Origin: Gillisia marina
GTDB lineage: Bacteria > Bacteroidota > Bacteroidia > Flavobacteriales > Flavobacteriaceae
Reading direction: 5' to 3'
Assembly: GCF_000258765.1 (NCBI RefSeq)
Contig: NZ_AJLT01000002.1
Coordinates: 1 to 64,000, forward strand
Length of the DNA stretch: 64,000 nucleotides
The translations under genes were made by a program, and so were the position numbers. The notes beneath the pieces were generated by a model. The model had not been told where the DNA came from, made no database searches, and was given only the letters and a program-made list of their open reading frames with translations. Shown in pieces: positions 7,643 through 56,455 of the stretch. Position 1 is the first letter of the stretch; each line of letters begins with the position of its first letter.

Positions 7643-7714
7643 TAATGTCAGGTTGAGCGGAGTCGAAACCTCATTTTAAATTCAAAAGTTCTCGACTACG
7701 CTCGAACAGACACA
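7643..7714. repeat. GTCA-family two-armed palindrome
   Basis: The left arm TGTCAGGTTGAGCGGAGTCG (7646-7665) faces the right arm CGACTACGCTCGAACAGACA (near 7692-7711) across an AT-rich spacer. It is the same arm type as the repeats surrounding the GIY-YIG nuclease near 24.4-25.0 kb. Confidence 0.8.
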
Positions 7715-10803: not shown

Positions 10804-10895
10804 GGTCATTCTGTCCCGACGCTTCGGGAGTTTCAGAATCTCATCATATAAATATCTATATATTATTGAGACCCTGAAATAAATTCAGGGTGACG
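10804..10895. repeat. GTCA-family two-armed palindrome
   Basis: The left arm GTCATTCTGTCCCGACGCTT with CGGGA and AGAATCTCA is followed by an AT-rich spacer and the right arm GAGACCCTGAAATAAATTCA with GGGTGACG. The arms belong to different subtypes but share the GTCA...TGAC ends. It lies in the 222-bp gap between two minus-strand genes. Confidence 0.8.
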
Positions 10896-21422: not shown

Positions 21423-23316
21423 CTATGATCTCTTGAACACTTCAGGGTTTAAAAGGGTGCTAATGTCTCCTAAATTATCAGTGTCTTTATGAGCAATTTT
21501 ACGCAAGATTCTTCTCATAATTTTCCCGGATCGTGTTTTTGGTAAGCCCACAGTAAATTGAATTTTATCGAGTTTTGCAATAGGCCCAATATGTTCCGTG
21601 ATAATTTGATTAATCTCCTTTCTTAAATTCTCATGAAGTCTTGATTCTCCCGTTTCTTTCAAAATCACATACCCATAAAGTGCATTTCCCTTCACATCAT
21701 GTGGGAAACCTACAATTGCCGATTCAGCCACTGCAGGATGTTCATTTATTGCATCTTCAATTGGTGCAGTTCCCAGATTATGACCCGAAACAATGATCAC
21801 ATCATCTACTCTTCCTGTAATTCGGTAATATCCAACGGTATCTCTTAGGGCACCATCTCCGGTGAAATATTTATTTTCGTAGGCCGAAAAATAGGTTTCT
21901 TTATAGCGCTTATGATCTCCCCAAATAGTTCTAGCCATTCCCGGCCAAGGAAATTTAATGCATAAGCGTCCATCTACCTGATTCCCTTCGATCTCTTTCC
22001 CATGTTCATCCATTAACGCAGGCTGAATTCCCGGTAATGGTAAGGTCGCATAGGTTGGGATCGTTGGTGTTGCATATGGAATAGGAGAGATCATAATCCC
22101 TCCTGTTTCGGTTTGCCACCAAGTGTCTACAATCGGACTTTTCTTTTTCCCTACATTATCATTATACCAATGCCAAGCTTCTTCATTAATAGGCTCTCCA
22201 ACGGTTCCCAGCACTTTGAGCGAGGATAAGTCATGATTTTCTACAAACTCTAATTTCTCTTTCGCTAAAGCTCGAATTGCAGTAGGTGCTGTATAAAATT
22301 GGTTCACTTTATGCTTTTCTATGATCTCCCAGAATCGTCCAAAATCGGGATGATTTGGTACTCCTTCAAACATTATGGTGGTCGCTCCATTTGCCAGTGG
22401 CCCATAAAGAATATAACTATGCCCGGTAATCCAGCCAATATCGGCCGTGCACCAATACACATCTCCTTCCTTATACTGAAACACATTTTTAAAAGTATAG
22501 GCACTATATACCATATATCCCGCTGTGGTATGTAGCATCCCTTTCGGTTTTCCTGTAGATCCGGAAGTGTATAAAATAAACAAAGGGTCTTCCGCATCCA
22601 TTATTTCAATCACACATTCTTTGCTCGCTTTCTCTAAAAGAGGTTGCAACCAATGATCTCTTCCATCTTTCATATTGATATCAGCATCCGTTCGCTTCAC
22701 TACCAATACAGATTTAATGGTTGGTGTATTCTCCAAAGCTTCATCTACAATTCCTTTAAGATCGATTGTTTTAGTTCCACGGAAAGAGCCGTCCGAAGTA
22801 ATCACCATATTGCATTCGCAATCGTTAATTCTGGTAGCTAAAGCGGTTGCTGAAAATCCTGCAAATACAACAGAGTGGATAGCACCAATCCGCGCACATG
22901 CTAAAACAGAAACAGCCAATTCAGGAATCATGGGTAAATAAATACACACGCGATCTCCTTTTTTAATTCCCTGCTCCTTTAACACATTTGCAAAAGCACA
23001 TACTTTTTCGTGCAGCTGCTTATAACTTATATGTTGTGCTTCCTCTGAAGGATCATTTGGCTCGAAAATGATGGCGGTTTTATCTGCTTTTGTAGCTAAA
23101 TGCCTGTCGATACAATTTTCTGTAATATTTAGTTGTGCTCCTTCAAACCATTTTACTTCCGGTGTAGAAAAGTTCCAATCCAGCACTTTATCCCAAGGTT
23201 TTCTCCAAACAAAATGTTCTTCAGCAATCTCTGACCAGAAATTTTCCGGATCCCTCACCGATTTTCTATAGACTTGATAGTATTCTTCCAGATTTTTTTA
23301 TGTGATAACTACTCAT
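21423..23316 (-). CDS. acs: Acetyl-CoA synthetase (one frameshift near the start)
   Basis: AMP-forming acetate:CoA ligase of about 630 residues. Core motifs are YTSGSTGKPKG (AMP/ATP loop), WCTADIGWITGHSY, WWQTETGG and the C-terminal PKTRSGKIMRR, whose lysine is the site of inhibitory acetylation in studied homologues. The clear reading frame opens only at an internal ATG (23258, MRDPENFW); the expected N-terminus MSSYHIKNLEEYYQVYRKSV begins at the ATG at 23316 and is joined by removing one T from the T7 run at 23293-23299. The HDAC-like gene lies 25 bp upstream, on the same strand, so the pair is likely co-transcribed. Confidence 0.93.
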
Positions 23317-23341
23317 ACCGATTTAAAAATTTAATCAGCTT

Positions 23342-24319
23342 CTAAGATATAGAAATTATAAGAGTATCAACAACCAGAATTCTTTTTATGAGGGAGTTTT
23401 GATAGTGTTGCTTATTTAAAAAAAAGATTTTTTGTGCTAGTCGGAAGGTATTGGCGTGCGCCTCAATAATCATTTTAATTTCGGGAGAATAGCCGCCACC
23501 CATACTAACCTCTACCGGAATATTTAAATCGTGACAGGTTTGCAATACATACCGATCGCGCTCTTTACATCCATCTATTGTACAACCGAGTTTTCCAAGT
23601 TTGTCGGTTGCTAAAATATCTACCCCACTTAAATAAAAGATGAAATCTGGTTTCACTTTATTAATAAGTTCCGGCAGGGTATTTTTTAATACCTCAAGGT
23701 AATCTTTATCTCCCGTTTGATCTACCAATTCGATATCCAGATCGGAGGTCTCTTTTCTAAAAGAATAATTATTCTTTCCATGTATTGAAAAGGTGAAAAC
23801 TGAAGCATCCTCTCGAAAAATCTCTGCAGTTCCGTTTCCCTGATGCACATCGAGATCCACAATCAAGATCTTTTTTATCCCTTTTTTCTTCTGAAGATAT
23901 CTTGCCGCAATAGCTTGATCGTTTAGCAAACAAAAAGCTTCCCCATGACTTGTGTAGGCATGATGAGTTCCGCCAGCAATGTTCATTGAAATTCCATAGT
24001 TCAAAGCGTGGTCGCAAGCTTTCATGGTACCATGTGCAATAATAAGTTCTCGCTGAATTAGCTCTTCGGAAAGGGGAAAACCAATTTTTCGAGCCGCTCG
24101 TTTATCTACTGTAAGTTCTAATAAGTCAGCTACATAATCCTGACTGTGAACTGCTAAAACATTGGATATTTTAGGGAGTTCCGGTTCAAAGAAATTTTCC
24201 CTGGTGCAAGTTCCCTCATGCAGCAATTGCTTTGGCAGCAACTCATATTTTTCCATTGGGAACCGATGCCCTTCCGGAAGTGGATGTTTAAAGATTGGAT
24301 GAGCTGCTATTTTAAGCAT
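23342..24319 (-). CDS. HDAC-family (AcuC/AphA-like) deacetylase
   Basis: A 325-residue arginase/deacetylase-fold zinc enzyme. Active-site elements are visible: GGTHHAY (His119-His120), DLDVHQGNGT (zinc ligands Asp157 and His159), SGVD (third ligand) and GGGYS. Bacterial members deacetylate acetyl-lysine (AcuC acts on acetyl-CoA synthetase) or acetylpolyamines. Its position directly upstream of acs, with only 25 bp between, supports control of Acs activity. Compared with usual members, which stop soon after the LAQKIFF helix, it carries an odd tail of about 29 hydrophobic residues; a lost stop or another base error could explain it. Confidence 0.88.
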   Translation of the reverse strand: MLKIAAHPIFKHPLPEGHRFPMEKYELLPKQLLHEGTCTRENFFEPELPKISNVLAVHSQDYVADLLELTVDKRAARKIGFPLSEELIQRELIIAHGTMKACDHALNYGISMNIAGGTHHAYTSHGEAFCLLNDQAIAARYLQKKKGIKKILIVDLDVHQGNGTAEIFREDASVFTFSIHGKNNYSFRKETSDLDIELVDQTGDKDYLEVLKNTLPELINKVKPDFIFYLSGVDILATDKLGKLGCTIDGCKERDRYVLQTCHDLNIPVEVSMGGGYSPEIKMIIEAHANTFRLAQKIFFLNKQHYQNSLIKRILVVDTLIISIS

Positions 24320-24340
24320 TAATAGAGTTTCATGTTTTTA

Positions 24341-24475
24341 ACCTCCCTCTCGACTCCGCTCGAGGTGACCAATTCAAAATACAAAATTATATATTTGAAA
24401 GATTATTGACCCGTCGACTACGCTCGAGGTGACAAAGATCTGTCAGTTTGAGCGGAGTCGAGAACGATCGGGATC
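24341..24475. repeat. GTCA-family palindrome cluster downstream of the GIY-YIG gene
   Basis: Three arms are present: CTCTCGACTCCGCTCGAGGT at 24347-24366, CGTCGACTACGCTCGAGGTG (24412-24431), and TGTCAGTTTGAGCGGAGTCG (24441-24460) followed by AGAACGATCGGGATC. The last two form an inverted pair with a 6-bp spacer. Confidence 0.85.
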
Positions 24476-24501
24476 TAAAACTTTTGAATATCGAGAACTT
24501 A

Positions 24502-24810
24502 TTATTTATTCCTAAAATGCGAATCATTCCTGCATTCAGCTAAAAGATGTAATAACAAATCATCTTTCTTTGCCAAAGCTCTTTTCTTAACTGCGCTCCA
24601 CTTTTTTATCTTCTTTTCAAAATAAATAGCCTGATTCACATCATTAAATTCCTGACTAAAAATGAGATTTATGGGTCTTCTTTTATAGGTGAAGCATGTT
24701 TTATTTAATCCTGAATTATGTTCTGTTATTCTTCGGGATAGATTATTGGTAATACCTGTATATAATAACATATCTGAACATTCTAGGATATAAACATAAT
24801 AGAATTTCAT
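24502..24810 (-). CDS. GIY-YIG nuclease, UPF0213-type, enclosed by repeats
   Basis: A 102-residue single-domain GIY-YIG nuclease. The signature YYVYILECSD...YTGITNNLSRRITEH gives the two tyrosines and the catalytic Arg; a conserved NQAIYFEKKIKKWSxxKKxAL segment and the Glu in YFEKKIK complete the fold. Unlike UvrC or homing enzymes it has no extra DNA-binding domain. Stand-alone copies are widespread with unknown role. The gene is bracketed within 30 bp on each side by GTCA-family palindromes (24341-24475 and 24833-24988), the densest in the window apart from 49 kb. Confidence 0.88.
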   Translation of the reverse strand: MKFYYVYILECSDMLLYTGITNNLSRRITEHNSGLNKTCFTYKRRPINLIFSQEFNDVNQAIYFEKKIKKWSAVKKRALAKKDDLLLHLLAECRNDSHFRNK

Positions 24811-24832
24811 AATTAGTCCTAGTTAGTTAATA

Positions 24833-24988
24833 ACCTCTCTCCCGATAATTATCGGGACGTTCGAGGTGACAATAAAAGATTTAACAATACAAATTGCATT
24901 CAAGAAAGCCAAAAGACCTCTCGACTCCGCTCGAGGAGACAAAAGCATGTCAGTTCGAGCGTCCCGAAAGCTTTCGGGATCGAGAACT
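24833..24988. repeat. GTCA-family palindrome cluster upstream of the GIY-YIG gene
   Basis: Arms present: a unit with inner hairpin CCCGATAATTATCGGG and ending GTTCGAGGTGACA (24835-24871), CTCTCGACTCCGCTCGAGGA with GACA (24918-24941), and TGTCAGTTCGAGCG (24948-24961) followed by the hairpin TCCCGAAAGCTTTCGGGA and TCGAGAA. The last two face each other across a 6-bp spacer. Two core types occur: a short GCGGAGT-like core and a longer CCCGA...TCGGG hairpin core. Confidence 0.85.
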
Positions 24989-25001
24989 ATCAAAACGAGA
25001 A

Positions 25002-27071
25002 CTAACTAATTATCGTCCCATTCTTCACTCCTTCTTCATCGGGGTTTAAAAACACCAATTTCCCTTCAGCGTTTTCTGTCATCAAGATCATTCCCTGGCT
25101 TTCCACTCCTCGTAATTTACGCGGAGCAAGATTCACCAAAACGGTTACTTTTTTACCAATAATATCTTCAGCCTTAAAGCTCTTTGCAATTCCCGAAACA
25201 ATAGTTCTCACATCGATTCCGGTATCTACTTTTAAAACCAATAATTTATCTGCCTTTGGCATTTTTGAAGCCTCAACGATCGTCCCAACACGAAGGTCCA
25301 TCTTCGTAAAATCGTCAAAAGAAGACTCCTCTTTTTGTGGTTCTGCTTTCTTATTTTCTGCTTCGTTAGCTGCTTTCGTCGCTTCCAATTTATCTAGTTG
25401 TTGCTGAATTTGTTCATCTTCAATTTTACTGAAAAGCAATTCCGCCTTTCCTATCGTATGTCCTACAGGGATTAGCGTATCATTTATTGAAATATCTTCC
25501 CATTTAAGAGCGCCTTCTACTGAAGAAAGGTTCAATATGCTTTTCAACTTCTCTGAAGTGAATGGCAAGAAAGGTTCACTTAAAGTTGCCAATGCTGTAG
25601 AGATTTGAAGCGCTACAAACATTACTGTTTTTACTCTTTCCGGATCTGTTTTTACAACTTTCCAAGGCTCTTCATCTGCCAAATATTTATTTCCGAGTCT
25701 GGCAAGATTCATCAATTCTCCTTGCGCTTCTCTAAATCTATATCTCTCTACAGAACTTGCAATAACGGCCGGATATGCTTTTACTGCAGCTAAGGTATCA
25801 TCATCTACTTCTGTAAATTCCCCCGGTGCTGGAATGGTTCCGTCGTAATATTTGTGAGTAAGAACTACCGCTCTATTTATAAAATTTCCAAAAATTGCAA
25901 CTAGCTCATTATTATTTCTTGCCTGAAAATCTTTCCAGGTAAAATCGTTATCCTTAGTTTCCGGAGCATTGGCGGTAAGGGTATACCTTAACACATCCTG
26001 CTGATTTGGAAAATCCTCCAAATATTCATGTAACCAAACTGCCCAATTCTTAGAAGTGGAAAGTTTATTCCCTTCCAAATTCAAGAATTCATTTGCAGGC
26101 ACGTTTTCAGGAAGAATATAACTTCCTTCCGCTTTCAGCATAATTGGAAAAATAATACAGTGAAACACGATATTATCTTTCCCTATAAAATGCACCATTT
26201 TGGTGTCTTCTTTTTTCCAGTAATCTTCCCAGTTCTTTCCTTCCCGTGCTGCCCATTCTTTAGTAGCCGATATGTATCCAATTGGGGCATCAAACCACAC
26301 ATATAGCACTTTCCCATCAGCTCCTTCTACCGGCACAGGAATTCCCCATTCCAAATCTCTGGTTACAGCACGTGCTCGTAAACCTTCATCTACCCAAGAT
26401 TTTACTTGTCCGTACACATTGGCCTTCCAATCTTTCTTGTGGCCCTTTATCACCCATTCTTTCATGAAATCTTCATACTGATCTAAAGGCAAAAACCAGT
26501 GTTTGGTTTCCTTCATCGTTGGCACTGCCCCTGTAATGGCAGACTTAGGATTGATAAGATCTGTAGCATTCAAAGAACTTCCACAACTTTCACACTGATC
26601 GCCATAGGCTTCAGGATTGCCACATTTAGGACATGTCCCGGTCACAAAACGATCTGCAAGGAATTGGTTGGCTTCAACATCATACAATTGTTCTGTAGTT
26701 TCCTCTATAAATTTCCCATCGTTATATAACTTCTTAAAAAATTCTGAAGCCGTTTCATGATGAATTTTATTGGAGGTACGAGAATAATTATCGAAAGTCA
26801 CCCCAAAATCTACAAAGGACTTTTTAATAATCCCGTGATATTTATCTATCAATTCTTGCGGTGTAATCCCTTCTTTCTTAGCTTTCATCGGGATAGCAAC
26901 TCCGTGCTCATCGCTTCCACAAACAAATGCCACATCTTTCCCCTGCATTCTTAAAAAACGGGCGTAAATATCTGCGGGTACGTACACACCTGCCAAATGC
27001 CCAATATGTATAGGTCCATTTGTATAAGGTAATGCTGCGGTAATTGTATAACGTTGTGGTGTATTGCTCAT
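25002..27071 (-). CDS. metG: Methionine-tRNA ligase
   Basis: A 689-residue class I aminoacyl-tRNA synthetase. Seen are the HIGH signature ([10 protein letters not shown]), the zinc knuckle [17 protein letters not shown], the KMSKS equivalent NKLSTSKNW, and a C-terminal OB-fold tRNA-binding (Trbp111-like) domain starting near [15 protein letters not shown] and ending in [11 protein letters not shown]. The length fits the long, dimeric MetRS form. It charges tRNA-Met for initiation and elongation. It is intact and begins with its own promoter region shared with a divergent lipoprotein gene. Confidence 0.97.
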
Positions 27072-27092
27072 TAGCTTTTAAAATTTAATCAA

Positions 27093-27190
27093 TAACCTCG
27101 GGATAAACCCACGAGATATCGAATTGAAAATTGTTTTTAATAAATCGAGGGTAAACCTCGGGGATCGATACCCTCTGTGAGGGATTTACG
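27093..27190. repeat. CCTCGG / GAGGGATTTA repeat block
   Basis: It contains AACCTCGGGATAAACCCACG, then AACCTCGGGGATCG and ACCCTCTGTGAGGGATTTA. The closing palindrome matches ACCCTCAATGAGGGATTTA near 56530 and ACCTCATGAGGGATTAAA near 16375. It occupies the 5' region of metG. Confidence 0.65.
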
Positions 27191-54368: not shown

Positions 54369-54437
54369 TGTCAGTCTGAGCTTGTCGAAGACTTCGTGTT
54401 TGAGGTTCAACCAAACTTCGACAGGCTCAGTTTGACA
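54369..54437. repeat. GTCA-family two-armed palindrome
   Basis: The left arm TGTCAGTCTGAGCTTGTCGA faces CTTCGACAGGCTCAGTTTGA with CA on the right, with a 25-bp spacer. It lies in the gap between the TPR gene and DUF4286. It is one of the cleanest copies. Confidence 0.85.
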
Positions 54438-56371: not shown

Positions 56372-56455
56372 CGTCACCCTGAATTTATTTCAGGGTCTCA
56401 ATTTATTTTATTGATATATAATATTGTGAGATTCTGAAACAAGTTCAGAATGACG
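56372..56455. repeat. GTCA-family two-armed palindrome, clean copy
   Basis: CGTCACCCTGAATTTATTTC with AGGGTCTCA on the left and TGAGATTCTGAAACAAGTTC with AGAATGACG on the right surround a 26-bp AT-rich spacer. The outer ends CGTCA and TGACG are perfect inverted repeats, and each arm is itself a hairpin. It lies between serS and the TPR gene. Confidence 0.85.

Follow-up and report, generated by a model that had tools for sequence, protein, structure and literature searches.

The stretch of DNA analysed here (hereafter the window) comprises 64,000 nucleotides of the flavobacterium Gillisia marina (contig NZ_AJLT01000002.1, positions 1 to 64,000) and contains, on its reverse strand at 24502-24810, a gene for a small stand-alone GIY-YIG nuclease enclosed by six TGTCA-tagged hairpin repeats (hereafter arms), three on each side. 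In related genomes, arms are strongly concentrated around genes of this type, and the sequence class of the arms follows the clade of the nuclease. We consider it probable that the gene encodes a small sequence- and structure-specific GIY-YIG endonuclease whose substrate is the cognate hairpin repeat, probably in single-stranded form; less certainly, the enzyme may also have spread the repeats in trans as inverted doublets of the type called REPINs, i.e. doublets of repetitive extragenic palindromic (REP) sequences. An earlier note on this DNA, made from the sequence alone, had suggested from gene position a link resembling that between REPs and their REP-associated tyrosine transposases (RAYTs); an approximately 51-fold enrichment of arms near the gene, together with the correspondence between repeat class and protein clade, now supports this suggestion. 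The same note had placed the gene between dense repeat arms on both sides, as we also find.

The nuclease gene and its flanking arms

The arms around the gene belong to a single sequence class, class 1. The gene and its six arms are as follows:

24502-24810, reverse strand: stand-alone GIY-YIG nuclease gene, 102 amino acids (PF01541, invariant residues, predicted fold)
24346-24369, reverse strand: class-1 arm, tag GTCA
24410-24433, reverse strand: class-1 arm, tag GTCA
24442-24465, forward strand: class-1 arm, the closest one on the downstream side of the gene; its tag, GTCA, faces away from the gene
24834-24870, reverse strand: class-1 arm, the closest one on the upstream side of the gene; its tag faces away from the gene and its loop holds an 18-nt palindrome
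24917-24940, reverse strand: class-1 arm, tag variant GTCT
24949-24987, forward strand: class-1 arm, its loop holding an 18-nt palindrome

GIY-YIG (PF01541, 67.7 bits) is the sole Pfam domain of the 102-residue protein, and the predicted structure (mean predicted local distance difference test, pLDDT, 90.2) has a fold nearest to UPF0213 proteins and Slx1 nucleases. The nearest solved structures, by sequence profile as well as by fold, are the UPF0213/YazA-type PDB entries 1zg2 and 1ywl. The core residues of GIY-YIG proteins are kept throughout an alignment of 25 proteins from several clades, in which Y7, Y17, G19, R27, H31 and E65 are invariant. A search of NCBIfam with four of the GIY-YIG proteins assigned no family.

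Arms are enriched near the gene in related genomes

Enrichment was assessed in the best 80 of 145 loci from named genomes, a sample that consequently consists of close relatives of the query. The arm core GAGCGNAGTCGA, with one mismatch allowed, was found within 400 bp of the gene in 79 of these 80 loci, compared with 83 of 1600 random intervals of the same loci, and the reversed pattern, used as a control, gave 0/80. Core density amounts to 5.41 per kb near the gene versus 0.105 per kb beyond 1.2 kb, i.e. the approximately 51-fold difference mentioned above, so that the enrichment which the earlier note had proposed to look for does exist. Similarly, an exact 11-mer common to both flanks occurs in 76/80 loci versus 318/4000 random intervals. 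At one locus (L099), 14 arms lie within 450 bp of a single gene. A strict scan for GTCA-headed hairpins retrieved 12 of the 80 loci with a near-to-far ratio of 12.2, and the control head CAGT 6 loci with a ratio of 15.3; as the arms have a bulge, this filter was judged too demanding, and core patterns and a comparison of the two flanks for common repeats were used in its place.

The genome of Gillisia marina itself (2.98 Mb, 116 contigs) provides an internal comparison. The class-1 pattern TCGAGCGNAGTCGAGA, with up to two mismatches, has 82 matches distributed over many contigs, and its reversed form none. Of the eight GIY-YIG matches in this genome, two have arms of the classes scanned at 400 bp or less, namely the window nuclease and a paralogue on contig C21; no such arm was found within this distance at the other six loci, one of which (L003) is cut short by a contig end. 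One class-2 arm lies 581 bp away from the own-genome gene L004.

In plasmid records, 11 matches were obtained, and four loci were inspected (Sphingomonas, Methylobacterium, Planktothrix and Bacillus). Palindromic repeats were seen by eye beside the gene at the first three of these, and 11-mers common to both flanks at the Methylobacterium and Planktothrix loci; no flank-shared 11-mer was found at the Sphingomonas and Bacillus loci.

Repeat class follows nuclease clade

A set of 118 distinct genes was assembled from loci or stretches out of 149 genomes of the same family (that of Gillisia marina included), and 104 of the proteins were placed on a tree, leaving out 10 that were shorter than 60 amino acids or broken and 4 with very long branches or poor fits. 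Four arm classes served as labels (c1, c1b, c2 and c3, the first two being close). A single class could be given to 63 of the 104 proteins (one tie, L181, was left out), and two of these 63 rows, L127 and L154, represent one tandem pair with identical genes. On this tree, whose inner support is weak (55/104 branches open), and with class patterns drawn up after some of the scored loci had been viewed (c4 to c6 at L203, L206 and L210), the 63 labels require 6 class changes, the minimum in 300 shuffles being 26. Likewise, for 58 of the 63 proteins the class agrees with that of the nearest homologue from a foreign genome (2000 shuffles: mean 16.4, maximum 30). In the 10 genomes that hold nucleases of two or three classes, the nearest foreign homologue is of the same class in 23/24 cases, and thus it is the enzyme, rather than the host genome, that the repeat class goes with. 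Of the 45 genes left unlabelled, 10 are marked by another class, c4, and eight of these form one 8-row clade of the tree; the c4 pattern is also present at the class-2 locus L122.

At L127 (G013:C15:33076-36339), two nucleotide-identical nuclease genes lie at 1474 and 2510, 1,036 bp apart, which suggests a tandem duplication of a unit made of gene plus arm.

Structure of the arms and position of the gene between them

Across 346 distinct arms, retrieved with a pattern that itself dictates the core, the tag TGTCA is conserved and unpaired. Next to it, positions -3 and -4 covary through all four Watson-Crick types within a 4-bp outer stem: -3:+3 is complementary in 318 arms (138 expected if independent) and -4:+4 in 304 (137 expected). 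The inner part is imperfectly paired, and some arms have a nested palindrome in the loop. Such conservation, with a fixed tag and core and a free outer stem, would fit an enzyme that reads, in a folded single strand, both the tag and the core.

A REPIN, about 70 bp long, consists of two arms with their tags outward (TGTC-arm-spacer-arm-GACA). The class-1 REPIN of the window, at 7646-7712, has a predicted DNA fold of -16.2 kcal/mol (z -5.4), and six dispersed REPIN copies in Gillisia mitskevichiae keep the layout with a varying spacer, the second arm being altered in two. In a 400-kb sample of genome G131, 14 of 31 arms are in doublets, with tags outward in 6/7 of these, and the 82 arms of Gillisia marina include 15 neighbour pairs at 90 bp or less.

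The gene itself lies in a comparable setting. Where genes have arms on both sides, both nearest arms are tag-outward in 76 of 120 cases (25% expected), and this orientation is still found in 18/32 after clustering at 70% identity (p 1.6e-4). Judging from these arrangements, the nuclease gene often occupies the spacer position of a tags-outward doublet.

Distribution across genomes and age of the locus

Class-1 arms are present in 26 of the 30 genomes with a close homologue of the nuclease (E <=1e-28, a cut-off chosen after the table had been viewed, G110 at 1.4e-28, just outside, being counted in) and in 38 of the 119 others. Of the 30 best matches, nine have flanks of class c1b, one has c2 flanks and one c3 flanks, and two are broken genes. 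The association between close nucleases and class-1 arms is strong, and it is not strict.

The neighbours of the gene are metG (25002-27071) and, on the other side, a deacetylase gene resembling acuC (23342-24319). Counting that of the window, 17 of 110 loci contain metG, and they come from several genera; the position of the gene is therefore old. In the congeneric genome G111, 129 bp separate the aligned portions of acuC and metG, versus 710 bp in the window, and neither arm nor nuclease was seen in this stretch; the whole genome gave no nuclease match and no exact class-1 or class-2 arm.

Proposed mechanism and competing explanations

The components of the proposed reading differ in strength. 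It is very probable that the nuclease recognises its own class of arms; that it cleaves them as single strands seems likely; and that it drives the spread of REPINs is possible, though somewhat doubtful. Mechanistically, the enzyme would read the tag and core in the folded single strand, the outer stem being free, and would nick at or near the tag. Nicking would then allow short REPINs to be copied in trans to new sites, with the gene-bearing locus as the autonomous form.

Several observations weigh against this reading. Exact class-1 arms are missing from four of the 30 genomes that hold a close homologue, and conversely at least five are present in 17 of the 119 genomes that lack one. The most marked cases are G080, G084 and G097 (99% complete), with 27, 31 and 17 exact class-1 arms and no nuclease match at 1e-6, so that arms evidently persist without the nuclease; the GIY-YIG frames of these genomes are long, except for one of 105 amino acids in G084, and the nearest listed arm on the contig of that frame is 68 kb away. 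Repeats being equally common in genomes that lack the nuclease, an outcome which the earlier note had named as telling against the link, is thus seen in single genomes and not overall (26/30 versus 38/119). Layout is not uniform either: tags point outward in only 6 of the 15 neighbour pairs of Gillisia marina, at 44 of the 120 genes one or both of the nearest arms depart from the tag-outward orientation, and 32/108 genes are without repeat class under the patterns used. Moreover, the nuclease gene at the metG-acuC site looks long-settled, and no clean REPIN insertion with an exact empty site was found, related loci giving arm-containing indels only. In the Gillisia mitskevichiae gap orthologous to that of the 7.6-kb REPIN, the arms are missing and the rest of the gap has also diverged.

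Some of these points would suit an explanation in which the nuclease controls DNA uptake or repair by cutting its arms where they occur as single strands, in the way said of the Ssn nucleases discussed below, while the arms spread by other means. Arms do occur in genomes without a close nuclease, and a gene adjoining metG in 17/110 loci of several genera is more like a settled gene than a transposon. The REPIN layout and the location of the gene in the spacer position are, however, what would be expected of a mobile family with an autonomous member, and we hold this explanation to be rather unlikely. The gene's place between tags-outward arms (76/120 genes) could also be the result of homing, with the nuclease as a parasite of REPINs that cuts empty doublets and is copied in by repair; homing enzymes of the GIY-YIG type are known, I-TevI among them. 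Yet tens of arms are unoccupied in labelled genomes that have one or two nucleases per class, and efficient homing would fill more of them, which makes this scenario improbable.

A third possibility is that the enzyme does not touch the arms, which would instead be terminators or regulators of the nuclease messenger at the RNA level. The REPIN folds well as a single strand, and passages of Di Nocera et al. (2013, PMC3733652) place REPs mostly downstream of coding regions and allow that they may act as RNA. A role in RNA nevertheless leaves unexplained why the flanking class follows the nuclease clade rather than the host genome, and why 14 arms should lie within 450 bp of one gene at L099; we regard it as very improbable. 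As for a chance or passive association, in which small genes gather in repeat-rich gaps, the scattering of arms over many contigs is in its favour, but the 51-fold enrichment, the low count in random intervals (83/1600), the 23/24 class agreement in multi-class genomes and the six other own-genome GIY-YIG matches without scanned-class arms within 400 bp leave it a negligible probability.

Other repeats of the window and other GIY-YIG loci

Further doublets and arms are present elsewhere in the window:

7646-7712: class-1 REPIN, TGTC-arm, variable spacer, arm-GACA (fold z -5.4)
10805-10895: class-4 doublet; one arm, assigned by eye, with a TCCCGA...TCGGGA palindrome in its loop
12397-12478: class-4 doublet; one arm, assigned by eye, with a TCCCGA...TCGGGA palindrome in its loop
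48997-49076: class-2 arms, of the class flanking the C21 paralogue
54370-54436: class-2 doublet, tags outward
56373-56455: class-4 doublet, tags outward

A single family for all arms of the window was considered and rejected, three families being distinguished by sequence pattern. Accordingly, the former description of arms similar to those of the nuclease at six other places is retained for 7.6 kb, which is class 1, and has to be given up for 49 and 54.4 kb (class 2) and for 10.8, 12.4 and 56.4 kb (class 4). The class-2 pattern (TGTCA tag, outer stem, TGAGC-N-TGTCGAA) has the same layout as class 1 with another sequence. The class-4 pattern (GTCA-NN-CTGAA...TTCAG) is matched by 4 of the 6 class-4 arms of the window, the other two being assigned by eye, and it has no match at the eight own-genome GIY-YIG loci; the class-4 doublets are possibly orphans, or else their enzyme could be encoded in a part of the genome missing from the assembly. 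An Rfam search of 23300-27100 found nothing. Indels with one hairpin arm inside another were observed between L095 and L094, between L109 and L096 and in other cases, and the long-loop arms of the window (TCCCGA...TCGGGA) resemble them.

Two other kinds of GIY-YIG locus were noticed. At L003 (G000:C34, in the genome of Gillisia marina), the gene lies between two direct copies of a sequence resembling a tRNA 3' end plus terminator (approx. 1-60 and 384-440), which suggests insertion of an element at the end of a tRNA gene; as the locus sits at a contig end, little can be seen of its upstream side. In addition, a second clade of stand-alone GIY-YIG genes is found downstream of the tmRNA gene (L004, at G000:C23:57806-58051, L283-L288, L290 and L297) and includes members at tRNA-Arg, Ser and Val, a tRNA or tmRNA being present in 16 of the 23 loci inspected. 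This adjacency may be plain synteny.

Comparison with known systems

REPINs are described, in passages of Bertels and Rainey (2011, PMC3116915), as inverted REP doublets that form hairpins and are associated with RAYT genes. The doublets reported here are likewise inverted and fold into one hairpin, and a class-specific enzyme gene adjoins them. However, the RAYTs of that description are tyrosine transposases with GTAG-tagged repeats, whereas the present system has a GIY-YIG enzyme and a TGTCA tag. The tyrosine (HUH) transposase fold was not found in the window protein, for which Pfam gives only GIY-YIG and the fold matches are GIY-YIG proteins.

A second family, the CGTC REPs, appears in passages of Di Nocera et al. 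(2013, PMC3733652) as CGTC/TGTC-tagged repeats of five phyla, Bacteroidetes included, with G. forsetii among the hosts; there, the tag is often TGTC, the palindromic stem measures 8-9 bp, the loop 4-5 nt, dimers occur, and the repeats are reported without a dedicated transposase. The arms analysed here similarly have an unpaired TGTC(A) tag at one end (346 arms), and dimers were observed in Gillisia marina and in the G131 sample. As to stem and loop, the arms show a clear 4-bp covarying outer stem, an imperfect inner part and, in some, a nested palindrome in the loop. The system differs from the family as described there in that a cognate nuclease is proposed.

If GIY-YIG proteins recognise and spread CGTC REPs, the gap left by repeats said to be without a dedicated enzyme closes. 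We tentatively put forward that these nucleases could mobilise the CGTC REP superfamily and so supply the enzyme it is missing. The locus with the gene would then be an autonomous element ending in two tags-outward arms, and REPINs would be its gene-less derivatives; in Flavobacteriaceae, joint diversification of nuclease and repeat would have given rise to at least four or five classes, several of which coexist in one genome. If so, the several nuclease-repeat pairs of single genomes would be ready-made pairs for specificity work; should the enzymes only cut, they would still provide single-strand nucleases that are specific for hairpins and differ in their targets. Literature searches combining GIY-YIG and REP terms gave no title joining both among the matches listed, subscription literature falling mostly outside their scope. 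With regard to UPF0213/YazA, the one Bacillus subtilis yazA locus inspected, from a plasmid record, lies among ordinary genes, and its flanks have no common 11-mer.

Chenal et al. are said to have described in 2025 a family of site-specific single-stranded-DNA GIY-YIG nucleases named Ssn. Ssn is reportedly a small stand-alone protein with a short cognate repeat in many copies and with many homologues that have sequences of their own; in Neisseria, it is said to cut single-stranded DNA site-specifically and to exert a control on DNA uptake or repair. In view of this reported work, the earlier note's remark that stand-alone proteins of this kind lack a settled role seems outdated. As reported for Ssn, the window protein is small and stands alone, and a repeat of presumably cognate type is present in many genome copies (82 matches). 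Possible differences from Ssn are that the repeats here form REPINs with the gene in the spacer, and that one genome can have several nucleases, each flanked by its own repeat class. We take the window nuclease to be a probable member of the Ssn family with cognate REPINs of the CGTC type.
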